DNA from: Polyangiaceae bacterium
GTDB taxonomy: Bacteria; Myxococcota_A; Polyangia; Polyangiales; Polyangiaceae
Assembly (NCBI GenBank): GCA_013214025.1
Contig: JABSRN010000024.1
Location: 1 to 52,890 of the forward strand
Direction of reading: 5' to 3'
DNA: 52,890 nucleotides
Positions 14,909 through 20,458 of the stretch are shown in pieces (the first letter of the stretch is position 1; each line of letters starts with the position of its first letter). The position numbers and the translations under genes are program-made. The notes under the pieces were generated by a model. That model saw only the letters and a program-made list of their open reading frames with translations, did no database searches and was not told where the DNA came from.

Positions 14909-16885
14909 ATGGCCAATACGCTTTTCGACAAGGAGTTCAAGGAACGCTACCTCAGCTTCGATCCTCGCAGCCTCGCTCTGTTCCGGGTGTGCTTCGGAAT
15001 TACAGCGCTCTTTGAGGTTCGCCGCCGCTTCGGTGTGATTGAACATTGGTACGTCAACGACGGCATCATGCCGAACCACACTCTGTTGTGGCGCCCCCCA
15101 TCCGACCACTTTTACTCATTCTTTCTCTCTCTGAGTTCTTACGAGGGCGCTGTGATCGGCATCGCCCTCTGCGCCGTTGTATTTACGTTTTTCACTCTCG
15201 GGTTATTCCAGAGGGTCACCCATCCGCTGGCTTTCTTCTGCATGTGCAGTTTGAATGCGCGGATCCCCGGCTTGGAAAACGGCGGGAATATGGTAGTCAA
15301 CACCCTGATGCTTTGGACGATGTTCCTGCCTCTCGCGGAACGTTTCAGCATCGATTCCCTCCGGCGTTCCATGCGCGCCCGAACCGAGCATGCTCTCGTG
15401 CAGCTCGAAGACCGGAGCGCGCTCGAGCCCAATCGTAAACGTTTCATTACCGCCGGCGCCCTCGCGATGCTCGCCCAGGGATTTGTGATCTACTACTTCA
15501 ACGTAGCTCACAAGACCGGCCCCACCTGGATCGACGGGACCGCCGTACATTACACACTACACCAAGACCGCCTCGTGCTGCCTCTGGGCGTGTGGATGCG
15601 CGAGAACCTTCCCTTCGCCGTACTGAAAGGTCTCGTCTATTCCACCATCGTTGTGGAATGCTTCGCGGTCTTCGCTATCGCCACCCCGTTCTTTTCCCGC
15701 TGGGCGCGGCTTATCGCGTTTTTCGCGTTGCCCGCGCTGCACTTTGGGTTCGCCATGGCCCTCGACTTGGGTCCTTTTTCCTGGGCGGTCATGTGTTTCT
15801 TCACCGTGCTGCCACGAGAAGAAGACTGGGAAGCGCTGAAACGGTTTGCCACGGCCCGCACCCAGCGCCGGCGAGTATTCATCGATTCAGACTGTGGTAT
15901 CTGCACCCAAACCGCTCGATTGCTCGCCCGCATGGATCGACTCGGACGGCTCGAATTGGTCAGCAATCAAGACGAGTCACTACTCCCCGAGGGTGTCAGT
16001 CAGCAACTCACCCAGAACACGATCGTGGTGCAAAACCTCGATACGGGAGCCGTGGCCAGTTACGGACCCGCCTGTGCACAGGTGCTCAAGGCGCTGCCCT
16101 TCGGGTTTTTGATCGCCTGGCTGGCGAGCATCCCTCCGATCTCGTGGATCATTACGGCAACCTATAAACGCGTCGCCAACAATCGGCATCTGATCAGCGG
16201 CTGGCTCGGCTGGGGTGTGTGCGGCGTAAAAACCGCCGAGACTCCAGAGCCCACCACTTACGTCGCGCCCGCGTTCCACGCCAGCCTCGCCCGGTGCCGC
16301 TTCCGCGTGGGCCAAGTGATTCTTGCCTTGATGGTATTCGCCAACGCCGGCGAATTGGCCCGAGTCAACGCCGCAGTCCCCCAAAGGTTCAAGTGGAAGG
16401 AACCCACTTGGTCCCGCATGTTGGTGGAATACCCCCGATTGCTCCAGGGTTGGCGAATGTTTGCTCCCGACGCCCCACTGGAGGACGAATACTTTTATGT
16501 AGACGCCGTCACCCAGGACGGAAGACATGTGGATCCCTACAACGAAGTCGCCAGCAACGATCCGGCCCCCTTCAGCGACACGGTGCCGACTTTGCTGGGG
16601 CAAGATCAATACTTTACTAGCTACACATTGTTCTTCCCTCAGCGACATTTCGGCGCGTATCGCACGGCCTTTCGCGAGTGGATCGAGCGTTACCAAGATC
16701 GCACTGGCAACCCCAACGACCGCATCGTGTATTTCGAGGCATGGGAAATTTGGGATAGCAGCCCGCCGCCAGGACAAACTCAACCCACTCCGAAGAGTAA
16801 GAAGAAGTTCATGGTTTGGGGCAAACGACCGCGGGACTTCGTCCCCGCCACCGAAGCCGACGCCGTGCTCCGCGATTCGCGCTAG
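14909..16885 (+). CDS. HTTM-domain membrane protein fused to a DCC (DUF393) thioredoxin-like domain
   Basis: 658 aa. Residues 1-310 are an HTTM domain, the membrane fold related to vitamin K-dependent gamma-carboxylase, with opening motif DPRSLALFRVCFGITALFE and several helices. Residues about 325-430 form a DCC-family domain with the hallmark DSDCGICT (D-x-x-C-x-x-C) after RRRVFI and a later helix. A third region from about residue 465 (WRMFAPDAPLEDEYFYVDA) is typical of the C-terminal lumenal part of HTTM proteins. Both Cys of the CxxC are present. The fusion suggests membrane-associated redox chemistry, but no substrate is known for bacterial HTTM proteins. It lies 145 bp after the CAP gene. 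Confidence 0.75.
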   Translation: MANTLFDKEFKERYLSFDPRSLALFRVCFGITALFEVRRRFGVIEHWYVNDGIMPNHTLLWRPPSDHFYSFFLSLSSYEGAVIGIALCAVVFTFFTLGLFQRVTHPLAFFCMCSLNARIPGLENGGNMVVNTLMLWTMFLPLAERFSIDSLRRSMRARTEHALVQLEDRSALEPNRKRFITAGALAMLAQGFVIYYFNVAHKTGPTWIDGTAVHYTLHQDRLVLPLGVWMRENLPFAVLKGLVYSTIVVECFAVFAIATPFFSRWARLIAFFALPALHFGFAMALDLGPFSWAVMCFFTVLPREEDWEALKRFATARTQRRRVFIDSDCGICTQTARLLARMDRLGRLELVSNQDESLLPEGVSQQLTQNTIVVQNLDTGAVASYGPACAQVLKALPFGFLIAWLASIPPISWIITATYKRVANNRHLISGWLGWGVCGVKTAETPEPTTYVAPAFHASLARCRFRVGQVILALMVFANAGELARVNAAVPQRFKWKEPTWSRMLVEYPRLLQGWRMFAPDAPLEDEYFYVDAVTQDGRHVDPYNEVASNDPAPFSDTVPTLLGQDQYFTSYTLFFPQRHFGAYRTAFREWIERYQDRTGNPNDRIVYFEAWEIWDSSPPPGQTQPTPKSKKKFMVWGKRPRDFVPATEADAVLRDSR

Positions 16886-17025: not shown

Positions 17026-17518
17026 GTGCCATCACCCCTCAATCCCCGGCGAATATTGCCGTTTCCTTACTGGAGCGAGTCCCACAAAACACTGTGGGCC
17101 AGGCAAAGGGATAAGACAAGAGACAAGCGGGATTCCACGCCTGCCTCCGTCATTGCCGCTCAAATCGTTTCGGCTGCGTTAGCGGAACGGGTATCGGTTG
17201 CGGACCTCGGAGAGCTCGCCAAGAGCGACGCTGCCTTCGGAATGAGAGTCCTGGTTCAAGTCAACAGCGGCGTGAAAGACGGGGGCCGTCGGATCGCGGA
17301 CCTTGATCAGGCAGTCGGCATGCTCGGTATTCGCGGCATGACCAACATTGCGCTGGGCTTGGCTCTGAGCCAGCATGATCCCGGACGGCGAGGGCGGACG
17401 ACTCCTGCAGGGGAATTCTCTCCGTCGCGCCATCGCAGGCGAAGGCATCGCGAAAGACGGCGGGCGCAATCGTGTAGCCTTGGCCCCGCCCCGATCGGCC
17501 CAGAAGGCAGCCGCCGGA
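17026..17518 (+). pseudogene. Frameshifted, truncated HDOD-domain gene
   Basis: The plus-strand frame reads an HDOD-domain core (SVADLGELAKSDAAFGMRVL, then VQVNSG, then QAVGMLGIRGMTNIALGLAL), the part of HDOD signalling proteins with the conserved D-x-A-x-x-x-R-V-L and L-G-I-R-G-x-x-N motifs. After ALSQ near 17372 the open frame loses similarity, while the next frame continues with DGEGGRLLQGNSLRRAIAGE, which is the expected HDOD continuation. A one-base indel is therefore likely. The repaired frame ends at a TGA near 17520, far short of a full HDOD protein. The 5' end is also weak. It converges with the membrane-protein gene on the other strand. I read it as a remnant. Confidence 0.6.
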
Positions 17519-17523
17519 TGAGC

Positions 17524-18549
17524 CTAGAGTTCTGTCCCTGTAGCCACATCGCCAGGGGGTGAGGGTGACGGGTCGGCTGGCAAAACCTCTTTGCGGATCT
17601 GGCTAGCTAACAAGCAGCTGTTGAGACCTCGGGAAAACTCCGGGGCCCGCGATTCCGAAACCCACGATGGGTCGACATGTCGCCGCAAGCGCACCAGAGG
17701 CTCACCGCTCTTGAGGCCGACGATGCCGAATCGAACCCAATGGGGGTTTCCACCGTCCAACTCCGTCCGCGTTCCCGGATCCTTGGCTTCGTCGATGGCG
17801 TATATTAGGTACCGGGCCGTCAACGCAGCTCGCGCCCTGAGCAGCCCTGCACTATCGAAAGCTTGCTGCAGTTGCGCCAGCTGATCGGAGCGCTCGGCCT
17901 CGACTACCCGTTCCCTCCAGCTGCCATCCAGATAGTAAATAGCTGCCAAGGCATCCCGGAGACGCCGGACATTACGCGTCGGCTCTTCCAATGCTTTTCC
18001 GCCTCGGTAGGCCGTGTATACGCTGCGGTACACAGACGATTCCCGTTCGAATTTGGGCGGTTCCAGGAGACAGAGCAGAAACGGATCTTTCTGCGATTCC
18101 CTCACCGCCAATTCGAAGCGCTTAGGCTCCTGAAAATCAGCGATGGGACCCCGCACGTAAATCGCCGGCACCGCGATCATCTCGGCCCAGGCCGTCCCTT
18201 TCCCTAGGTCGGGTCGGATCCAATCGCCCGCGTAGTCACTGGAGTCTCGCGCCAACCATCCCTGGGCGCGCTCAACTGTTTTCAGATCGCCACCGGACAA
18301 CACAGAACTTTCCAAGTCCAGAGATTTAAGCAGAAACCCGCGATCTTTTTCGAGTTCACCAATCCGCCGATTGCGCTCGGATACTAGGGAAACGCCACAG
18401 GAGACGATGACAACAATCGCCACCGCACGGATCATTGCGACTTTCGTCGGGCGCGGGATCCCGCTTCCTCTAGCTGCGGTTACCCCGAGGCTCGCTTCGA
18501 TTCGCTCCACTAGATCGGGATGCATGCGCGAGTTCGTGAGTAGACTCAT
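17524..18549 (-). CDS. Single-pass membrane protein of unknown function
   Basis: 341 aa from the ATG ending at 18549 (MSLLTNSRM). A cytoplasmic N-terminus of about 35 residues is followed by one hydrophobic helix (VAMIRAVAIVVIVSCGVSLV) and then a short heptad-like charged segment (RNRRIGELEKDRGFLLKSL), suggesting a coiled coil next to the membrane. The remaining 270 residues are soluble, with no motif I recognise. It begins 7 bp after the stop codon of the MutS-like gene on the same strand, so the two are almost certainly co-transcribed. A protein partnership is inference from that spacing. Confidence 0.65.
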   Translation of the reverse strand: MSLLTNSRMHPDLVERIEASLGVTAARGSGIPRPTKVAMIRAVAIVVIVSCGVSLVSERNRRIGELEKDRGFLLKSLDLESSVLSGGDLKTVERAQGWLARDSSDYAGDWIRPDLGKGTAWAEMIAVPAIYVRGPIADFQEPKRFELAVRESQKDPFLLCLLEPPKFERESSVYRSVYTAYRGGKALEEPTRNVRRLRDALAAIYYLDGSWRERVVEAERSDQLAQLQQAFDSAGLLRARAALTARYLIYAIDEAKDPGTRTELDGGNPHWVRFGIVGLKSGEPLVRLRRHVDPSWVSESRAPEFSRGLNSCLLASQIRKEVLPADPSPSPPGDVATGTEL

Positions 18550-18556
18550 GTTTCGC

Positions 18557-20227
18557 TCATCGGCGGCTCGGGCCCTTCGCCACTTTGTCTTCGATGAGAG
18601 CAAGCAACTGTTCTCCGGTCACGCCCAATCGGGCCGCCGCGTAGGCCGCCAACGACGTGCTGGCGACGCCAAGACCAAATTGGTAAGTCGCCTTCTCATT
18701 TTCATCCAGTAGCACCTGCAAGAATCGCAAATCCTCTATCTTTCCCTCATCCTGAAGGCGTGCGGCGAAGCCGAGGAAGTGCGTGGTGACGAAGGCCTGA
18801 GGCCTGAGCAAGGTCAGCATCCGGATAACCAACTCGAATATTTCTTCACCCTCGGACGGATTTGTGCCCGAGCAGAGCTCATCCAGAATCACCATGGCCC
18901 CGGGCGGAAAATCCTCAAACAAGGCTCGGATCCGGACAAGTTCGGTCCCCAAGCGACCCTCGCTCTGGTTGAGCGTAGTCTCCTGAATGAGCGACACCAC
19001 CAGGCCGGGTACCAACGCCATTTTCGCCGACTGGGCAGGCACATAGAGACCACACTGGGCCAACATTTGAGCCAACCCCAACGCTTGCAGCAGACGGGTC
19101 TTGCCACCGGAGTTGGGTCCGGTAATCAGCACGGTGGTATCCATGCGGTCGGTTTGCACATTAGCCGGGATAGGCGTGATGTCTCCGCCCAACAGCAAAG
19201 GATTGAACAAGGCCGTCAAGGTCCGCGCCTGCGATGCGTCCACGAGTTCCGGCAAACAGACGTCTAGTTTCGCTTTTCGAGCTCGATCGCAAAAAGATAG
19301 GGCCCCGAGATAGAACTCCACGTCGCCCAGAAGCTGAACCAGGCACAACATGGGCTCACGAACCCCCTCAAACACAGCGTCGAGGAGCCGTGCCATGACT
19401 TCACCGTCACTGAAGCGATAGCCGCGAGCGAACAACTCCAACTTGGTCAGCCAGCGACGCCAGGGAGAGCTCACGAAAGGGTTGTCCTGTGTCTCTTTAA
19501 TGGAACGGACCTGAAGGCGCCGGATTCGCCCGTCCGCGCCGAGACCAACCTCGAAACTCAACGTAGCGAGCTGCTCGTCGTACTGCAGGAGGTCGCACAG
19601 GGATTCAAAGGGTTCGCCCGCCTGCACTGCCCCGCCGAAGTTCGCCAGGCGCCGCAGCCCCGAACTGCAAGCGCCGAATGCCTCGCTCAGGGGCTCCACC
19701 AATTCGCGAAACAATCGCAACAGATCAAGCTGCCGTCGGTTCGAATCCCAGTTGCTCCCTATATTGGTGCCCTCCAGCAACGCGCGGAAGCGACACAGTG
19801 TCTGGTACAAAGATTCGAGCTGCCGTCGAAGTTCGGGGTGCTCATTCAATTCAGCGATGATGGCGCGGCGATAGAAGACCGTGTCGGGCTCCGAGGGCGG
19901 ATGGCTCAGCAGTCGCCGTAGATAGTTCGATTGCTGGACCGGCTCGCCCGTGGCGACTCGTATTTGAAAACATTTGGTGACGAAGCTCTTGACGAACAGA
20001 TCGTCGGCGAAGGACGCGGGCTCCCATGTCGAAGGCGCCACGCTCGCCGTCGCTAGCGCATCACTGAACAGTCCGCCGGACGTGCCGCCCGCAAACGCCA
20101 TCACGAGGGCGAGATCCGTTCTCTCCCAATCGATGGTGCGCACGGGGGTAGCGTGCAACAGATCGGGCAGCGCTATGGGACTGCGGGTCGGGGAGGGATC
20201 CTGCGGCGGCATGGGGGAGTCAGACAC
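18557..20227 (-). CDS. MutS-family ATPase lacking the mismatch-recognition domain
   Basis: About 556 aa from the GTG ending at 20227; starts at 20212 and 20269 are also possible. The C-terminal third is a MutS ABC-type ATPase domain: Walker A ITGPNSGGKT near residue 375, the Walker B/signature block MVILDELCSGTNPSEGEE near residue 460, and the H-loop VTTHFLGFA. The preceding 350 residues look like a MutS core/lever region. The N-terminal mismatch-binding and connector domains of MutS are absent, and no C-terminal Smr nuclease of MutS2 is visible, so this is one of the MutS-like bacterial ATPases of uncertain role. It is followed 7 bp later by the single-pass membrane protein, an unusual partner for a MutS homologue. 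Confidence 0.75.
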   Translation of the reverse strand: MSDSPMPPQDPSPTRSPIALPDLLHATPVRTIDWERTDLALVMAFAGGTSGGLFSDALATASVAPSTWEPASFADDLFVKSFVTKCFQIRVATGEPVQQSNYLRRLLSHPPSEPDTVFYRRAIIAELNEHPELRRQLESLYQTLCRFRALLEGTNIGSNWDSNRRQLDLLRLFRELVEPLSEAFGACSSGLRRLANFGGAVQAGEPFESLCDLLQYDEQLATLSFEVGLGADGRIRRLQVRSIKETQDNPFVSSPWRRWLTKLELFARGYRFSDGEVMARLLDAVFEGVREPMLCLVQLLGDVEFYLGALSFCDRARKAKLDVCLPELVDASQARTLTALFNPLLLGGDITPIPANVQTDRMDTTVLITGPNSGGKTRLLQALGLAQMLAQCGLYVPAQSAKMALVPGLVVSLIQETTLNQSEGRLGTELVRIRALFEDFPPGAMVILDELCSGTNPSEGEEIFELVIRMLTLLRPQAFVTTHFLGFAARLQDEGKIEDLRFLQVLLDENEKATYQFGLGVASTSLAAYAAARLGVTGEQLLALIEDKVAKGPSRR

Positions 20228-20382
20228 GAGAACGCCCAGAATGTTCCAACACTTCGCGCACATTGTCACGACACCCCGGTTTGGCAGTGATCAAGGTCAG
20301 CTCAAGACGCACAGCCCAGCGGCCGAGTTAGCTCGCGACAAACAAGGACTACTGATAGTGTTTCCGTCCCGATGCTCCCCCC

Positions 20383-20432
20383 GTAAAGCAGAGCACCGCC
20401 GTAAAGCAGAGCACCGCCGTAAAGCAGCGCAC
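20383..20432. repeat. 18-bp tandem repeat, nearly three copies
   Basis: GTAAAGCAGAGCACCGCC occurs at 20383-20400 and 20401-20418, followed by a diverged partial copy from 20419 (GTAAAGCAGCGCAC). It lies between the divergent MutS-like gene and the LamG remnant. Eighteen bp keeps reading frame, but no convincing gene covers it. Confidence 0.85.
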
Positions 20433-20458
20433 TCAGCTCCGCGCGTTATGCACATTGA

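Follow-up and report, generated by a model that had tools for sequence, protein, structure and literature searches.

A gene for a MutS-family ATPase and a gene for a single-pass membrane protein, hereafter MEM, stand side by side in a 52,890-nucleotide stretch of DNA (the window) from a Polyangiaceae bacterium (assembly GCA_013214025.1, contig JABSRN010000024.1, positions 1 to 52,890) and are kept together in nearly all genomes of the order Polyangiales that carry this ATPase. Both genes lie on the minus strand. The ATPase gene (18557..20212) encodes 551 amino acids (aa) and is followed, after an intergenic gap of 7 bp (18550..18556), by the MEM open reading frame (ORF; 17524..18549), which encodes 341 aa with one hydrophobic segment, just as the original prediction for this DNA described it. 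That prediction had the ATPase coupled to the membrane protein, and gene order, spacing and co-inheritance, all of them features of the genes themselves, support such a coupling. The pair suggests that a repair-type ATPase may have been re-used for work at the cell envelope.

Conservation of the gene pair

Conservation of the pair in other genomes, which the original prediction had set as its test, was found in both genome collections inspected. Among the named genomes, the following counts refer to the 80 highest-scoring of 579 ATPase relatives, with class A defined by a hidden Markov model score of at least 792 bits and unlinked relatives scoring at most 722 bits. All 38 class A loci have MEM immediately behind the ATPase gene in the same orientation, and none of the 42 loci of the sister class B does, some unlinked loci having little sequence behind the ATPase gene (275 bases in L174 and 500 in L172). 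Of 183 Polyangiales genomes, 48 contain a class A ATPase, and in all but one of these, 47 in number, MEM comes directly after it; the 38 loci and the 48 genomes overlap, and the two counts are not independent. Among the 47 paired genomes, MEM is cut by contig ends in G028, G056 and G413 (the last judged from the contig end of L131), is truncated in G375 and lies in two frames in G388, while G356 is not counted among the 48 because its ATPase is cut by a contig end. Pairing at this level is far more frequent than chance would give. Spacing is equally tight, with a median gap of 3 bp in 42 loci and a gap of 10 bp or less in 40 of them, including eight in which the genes overlap.

We also compared the ATPases phylogenetically, as the original prediction had envisaged for MutS-like subfamilies. 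In a tree of 85 rows, obtained by a quick search and with a distant outgroup on long branches, the 39 MEM-linked rows and that of genome G019 form one clade inside the unlinked ones (support 100 in the Shimodaira–Hasegawa-like approximate likelihood ratio test, SH-aLRT). The fewest changes on this tree would be a single gain of MEM followed by its loss in G019. Carriers of the pair include Polyangium, Minicystis and Labilithrix; the unlinked loci among the best 80 relatives include the four named Sorangium cellulosum loci and the five of Acidobacteriota. A sample of 282 genomes from the whole phylum gave MEM-family matches (E-values up to 1e-5) in 26, all from the family or order of the window, and the match is strong and of the linked type in 10 of these 26.

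A larger conserved operon was considered and rejected: besides the pair and antisense ORFs, no family is more widespread than one that recurs in 15 of 43 neighbourhoods, at positions anywhere between -7.5 and +10.3 kb. Around the 42 class B loci (within 5.5 kb), a protein-kinase-like family is present in 14 at variable places, and synteny is seen among Sorangium strains.

Family, domains and fold of the ATPase

The in-frame ATG at 20212 was taken as the start of the ATPase gene, the ORF being open to a GTG at 20269. Its product is 55–62% identical to 18 class A proteins. MutS_V is the only Pfam family above cut-off in the window protein (E = 7e-19) and is matched in all 19 class A members; no Pfam match to MutS domains I–IV or Smr was obtained for the window ATPase (E up to 1) or for any of the 19 class A members (E up to 0.1). 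Scores with NCBIfam models are all below cut-off, at 103.9 bits for mutS2 (cut-off 400), 94.8 bits for KamC (cut-off 300; the second-best model, E = 5e-27 over the ATPase part) and 43.8 bits for mutS1 (cut-off 641.7).

Three motifs named in the original prediction are present and invariant in all 19 class A members, namely Walker A (TGPNSGGKT, residues 364–372; 19097..19123), what we take to be Walker B (LDELCSGTNPSEG) and what we take to be the H-loop (TTH, residues 476–478; 18779..18787). The ATPase is therefore probably active. In the class A and class B alignments, Walker B and the loop behind it make up the VILDELCSGTNPSEGEE region (residues 440–456; 18845..18895), and every Walker A residue is conserved at a level of at least 95% in the rows of both classes. 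Residues specific to class A are only five (W254, E259, G303, T360 and V405), too few for surface mapping.

The predicted structure of the ATPase has a mean predicted local distance difference test score (pLDDT) of 73, with weak stretches in the clamp and within the ATPase domain. Residues ~45–511 of the model align with MutS proteins (best Foldseek E = 1e-14). VIA comparison gave a Z of 25.9 with MutS (1nne; root-mean-square deviation 4.1, 357 residues aligned) and of 23.4 with the MutS2 core (7vuk; 3.1, 338 aligned). Because the model aligns with these structures, core, lever and clamp are kept in it together with the ATPase part, as in the MutS2 core. Domains I, II and Smr are lacking. The original claim of an ATPase without the MutS N-terminal domains or Smr thus holds for domains I, II and Smr, but not for core, lever and clamp. 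The clamp stretch of class A has a positive net charge (median +3, against +5 in the unlinked class), and lever and clamp charge, tried as a pointer to DNA binding, gave no decision.

The core architecture of MutS2 and its role at stalled ribosomes are described in PMC12292046, according to which characterisation is still largely lacking for many of the prokaryotic MutS subfamilies that have no domains I and II. The window ATPase shares core, lever, clamp and ATPase fold with the MutS2 core and likewise does without domains I and II. It differs from MutS2 in that it lacks Smr, scores below the cut-off and has a membrane partner gene, and its genome (G000; 5.8 Mb, 184 contigs) also encodes a true MutS2 (646.6 bits, above the NCBIfam cut-off). 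KamC, the lysine 5,6-aminomutase reactivase ATPase, has a MutS-type ATPase domain in common with it, whereas the membrane partner gene is found only here.

G000 contains three further MutS homologues: this MutS2, a MutS1 (791.7 and 749.7 bits with two NCBIfam models, above their cut-offs) and a 627-aa MutS_V ATPase (G000:C97:185541-187421; locus L197:3542-5422). The last has two hydrophobic segments near its N-terminus and is probably located at the membrane. It is distant from the window ATPase (27% identity over the ATPase part), falls short of the NCBIfam cut-off of each of the four models matched and recurs, at E-values up to 1e-40, in 31 of 39 relatives. MutS_V is common to both proteins, but the hydrophobic segments of the 627-aa protein are part of the same chain, whereas the window pair uses a separate protein. 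Given these N-terminal segments and how widely the protein recurs among relatives, the pair with MEM is probably not the only case of a membrane-linked MutS ATPase. The original prediction had called a membrane partner unexpected for a MutS relative; the partner gene is borne out by the conservation of the pair, but a link to the membrane is not unique even within this genome.

Architecture and N-terminal motif of MEM

MEM has a single hydrophobic, transmembrane segment at about residues 34–56 (18382..18450). In the AlphaFold2 model (mean pLDDT 87, with low values for the first 30 residues), one unbroken helix spans residues 34–82, its part behind the membrane segment being residues 57–82 (18304..18381), and is followed by an alpha/beta domain at residues 108–326 (17572..18228). 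A membrane-proximal coiled coil had been proposed originally; what the model retains of it is a membrane-proximal helical extension, predicted as a single helix.

Net charge on the N-terminal side of the membrane helix exceeds that on the C-terminal side in 13 of 14 rows. By the positive-inside rule, the N-terminus of MEM is therefore predicted to be cytoplasmic. Cys160 is present in 57 of 57 family members and Cys312 in 55 of 57, and a four-cysteine insert occurs in 8 of 16 main paralogues of MEM (see below). These cysteines favour a periplasmic location, and the alpha/beta domain is probably periplasmic. Its fold neighbours, though weak, are largely envelope proteins (the CC_3750 lipoprotein, PelC, PqiC, CsgG, FlgT, LptE, TolB and LpoB). 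The C-terminal domains of TolA and TonB are not among the best 50 VIA matches listed, which excludes nothing. Pfam contains no family for the window protein and gives weak single matches for other rows, DUF4381 being matched in 2 of 14 with E = 0.04 at best; the best NCBIfam match is DVU2496_dom (E = 0.13), and the best match to sequences of solved structures has an E-value of 0.66.

The first 20 residues of MEM (18490..18549) contain the motif L-x4-M-x3-L-x2-R, which matches in 42 of 43 MutS-linked loci, is present in a second frame in the 43rd (L122) and is found in 0 of 18 paralogue loci. In G375, a MEM of 76 aa (L239:3262-3492) directly behind a class A ATPase gene consists of this N-terminal motif and the membrane helix only, and its start overlaps the ATPase stop codon by one base. 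Since the motif is specific to linked MEMs and is kept in this reduced form, we infer that the N-terminal segment holds the ATPase. The G375 form also implies that the outer domain of MEM can be lost.

MEM paralogues and ExbB/ExbD-type genes

Paralogues of MEM exist in Polyangiales, including one in G000 itself. Among the 16 loci of the main paralogue (MEM2), which are those retrieved and not all that exist, the paralogue gene stands behind two ExbD-like genes in 14. An ExbB-like gene precedes the ExbD-like genes in 13 of these 14; in the remaining locus, L194, this point is where the contig begins. Of the 16 loci, 12 also have another ExbB-ExbD-ExbD set in divergent orientation; none of the ExbB/ExbD-type genes occurs in L190 and L195. 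In a third MEM subgroup (L244:5354-6751 and L245:5806-6768), an ExbB-like gene follows in the same orientation at a distance of almost 3 kb. In the L244 protein, a series of RRDDLG-type repeats precedes the membrane helix.

In an unrooted tree of 57 MEM proteins, the MutS-linked proteins make up one side of a branch (support 97/90) and the main paralogues are grouped weakly (73/45); as the tree is unrooted, it does not give the order in which the MutS link and the motor setting arose. L123 and L132 (cut by contig ends), L239 (the 76-aa protein of G375) and L240 (G356, in two frames) were left out of it. Because the paralogues follow ExbB/ExbD-type genes, we place the MEM family beside membrane machines that transduce energy; linkage to a MutS-type gene is one of the two main settings in which it occurs.

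The layout of MEM, with a short N-terminus, one membrane helix, a helical stretch and a globular C-terminal domain, resembles that of TolA and TonB, the force transducers of ion motors, for which an SHLS motif is also described (PMC12204202). No histidine is present in the MEM membrane segment in 14 of 14 rows, and hence there is no SHLS motif in it. The operon of the MEM paralogue has the same gene make-up as the AglRQS motor of Myxococcus, with one TolQ-like and two TolR-like genes (PMC3169522). This likeness concerns the paralogue and not the MutS-MEM pair, and the excerpt of the AglRQS account mentions no MEM-like gene. At a locus of G000 itself (C150; L196:2665-8710), two divergent ExbB-ExbD-ExbD sets are present, with the MEM paralogue behind one of them. 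Loci of this type may encode a motor of the TolQR type together with a candidate for its periplasmic transducer.

Proposed mechanism and alternative explanations

We propose that the two genes would form a two-part module of the inner membrane. MEM would be anchored in this membrane, the short basic tail facing the cytoplasm and the helix and alpha/beta domain projecting into the periplasm. The ATPase would dock on this tail, presumably as a dimer, a state that is common among MutS proteins. As ATP makes it open and close, its movement would be coupled via MEM to a partner in the envelope, either as an outward push, as in FtsEX and MacB, or as gating by a periplasmic signal. In FtsEX and MacB the ATPase is not MutS-like and the membrane subunit has four helices, whereas MEM has one hydrophobic segment, and the likeness is one of functional analogy. 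MacB and, by extension, FtsEX (type VII ATP-binding cassette (ABC) systems) couple a cytoplasmic ABC-class ATPase to a periplasmic domain (PMC7668044). From the features of the pair we infer a physical complex, its topology, its coupling to ATP, the direction of that coupling and an envelope target. Docking on the MEM tail at the inner membrane, with the ATP cycle coupled to the probably periplasmic domain, is a reading that we see as evenly balanced between right and wrong. A bolder extension, which we regard as unlikely, is that the MutS-type ATPase took the place of an ion motor and drives, or is gated by, work outside the inner membrane, the MEM family standing otherwise beside proton-driven ExbB/ExbD-type motors.

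Several observations weigh against the docking and coupling model. G019, a single-contig genome, has a class A ATPase and no linked-type MEM; its best MEM match is a paralogue (E = 7.8e-8), no remnant lies beside the ATPase gene, and its congeners G396 and G397 both carry the pair. The MEM beside the ATPase in G375 lacks the entire periplasmic domain, a loss that force transfer would hardly allow. Unlike the main paralogues behind ExbB-ExbD-ExbD genes, the MutS-linked copies have ExbB/ExbD genes nearby in 0 of 39 loci (with flanks of up to 8 kb in loci other than the window). In the window MEM, the two sides of the membrane helix differ little in charge (+1 versus 0), and confidence in the MEM model is low for the very tail proposed as the dock. 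Fold matches of the MEM domain are weak, with E = 0.046 (Foldseek) and Z = 5.8 (VIA) at best, and unrelated proteins such as RecA, Mgm101 and designed helical switches share its match lists. Independently of these points, relaxed residues were sought in the partnerless ATPase of G019; its three private changes (Y211H, E259A and V500A) fall within the range of 0–9 in the other 42 rows and give no signal.

The main rival, although we rate it as somewhat unlikely, is that MEM would merely tether the ATPase to the inner membrane for a cytoplasmic client (DNA, stalled ribosomes or a protein complex), with nothing transmitted across. The motif-and-helix form in G375 is what a tether would leave, the ATPase without a partner in G019 speaks for this weaker reading too, and the lever and clamp fold, which holds DNA or ribosomes in relatives, is present with a net positive clamp. 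Against a tether, a structured outer domain of ~220 residues with invariant residues is kept in nearly all lineages, which is more than a mere anchor would need, and class B does without such a gene alongside in 42 of 42 loci. More doubtful is a reactivase or assembly factor that, like KamC, would remodel a membrane protein client recruited by MEM. KamC is the second-best NCBIfam match, and MutS-like proteins do occur in operons of adenosylcobalamin enzymes, where an assembly role has been proposed (PMC9164220). However, the score falls well short of the KamC cut-off, the ordinary MutS1 and MutS2 of G000 score higher with KamC (162.6 and 151.4 bits), and most of the 43 neighbourhoods contain no client gene, aminomutase models not having been searched as such.

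That the two proteins have independent functions and share an operon by accident is very unlikely. G019 does retain the ATPase gene alone, but 47 of 48 genomes keep the pair amid otherwise poorly conserved neighbours, and linked MEMs have a motif of their own and lie on one side of a well-supported branch of the MEM tree. The MutS family fold might also point to a usual mismatch repair or recombination protein with an incidental membrane neighbour, which we consider extremely improbable, as the ATPase lacks domains I, II and Smr and G000 has its own MutS1 and MutS2, both above cut-offs. A role in anti-phage defence was not supported: a PADLOC search gave five weak matches to short stretches within the ATPase part of the MutS-type protein (the best to AriA over 21 residues, E = 2e-6) and none for MEM.

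Other features of the window

Upstream of the ATPase gene, at window positions ~20391-20435, a short tandem repeat of ~18 bp (CGTAAAGCAGAGCACCGC) is present in almost three copies. On the plus strand, an ORF at 17026-17562 encodes a shortened HDOD domain (profile positions 7–81 of 196); it is convergent with the MEM gene, overlaps its end and is perhaps a gene remnant. Another plus-strand ORF (14909-16885) combines a DCC1-like thiol-disulfide oxidoreductase domain and a sub-threshold HTTM match in a single protein.

Implications

Among the titles and abstract beginnings listed in literature searches, none concerned a MutS ATPase whose membrane partner is a separate protein; ABC classification work may cover related genes. 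The familiar role of MutS proteins is that of soluble clamps, on DNA and, in the case of MutS2, on ribosomes. The natural exceptions described above, namely a lost partner, a partner reduced to motif and helix, and a paralogue beside ion motors, make the question of docking directly testable. With a conserved member that has a membrane partner of its own, the MutS family would reach into envelope biology, and the pair would show ABC-type ATPases switching from nucleic acid to membrane work.

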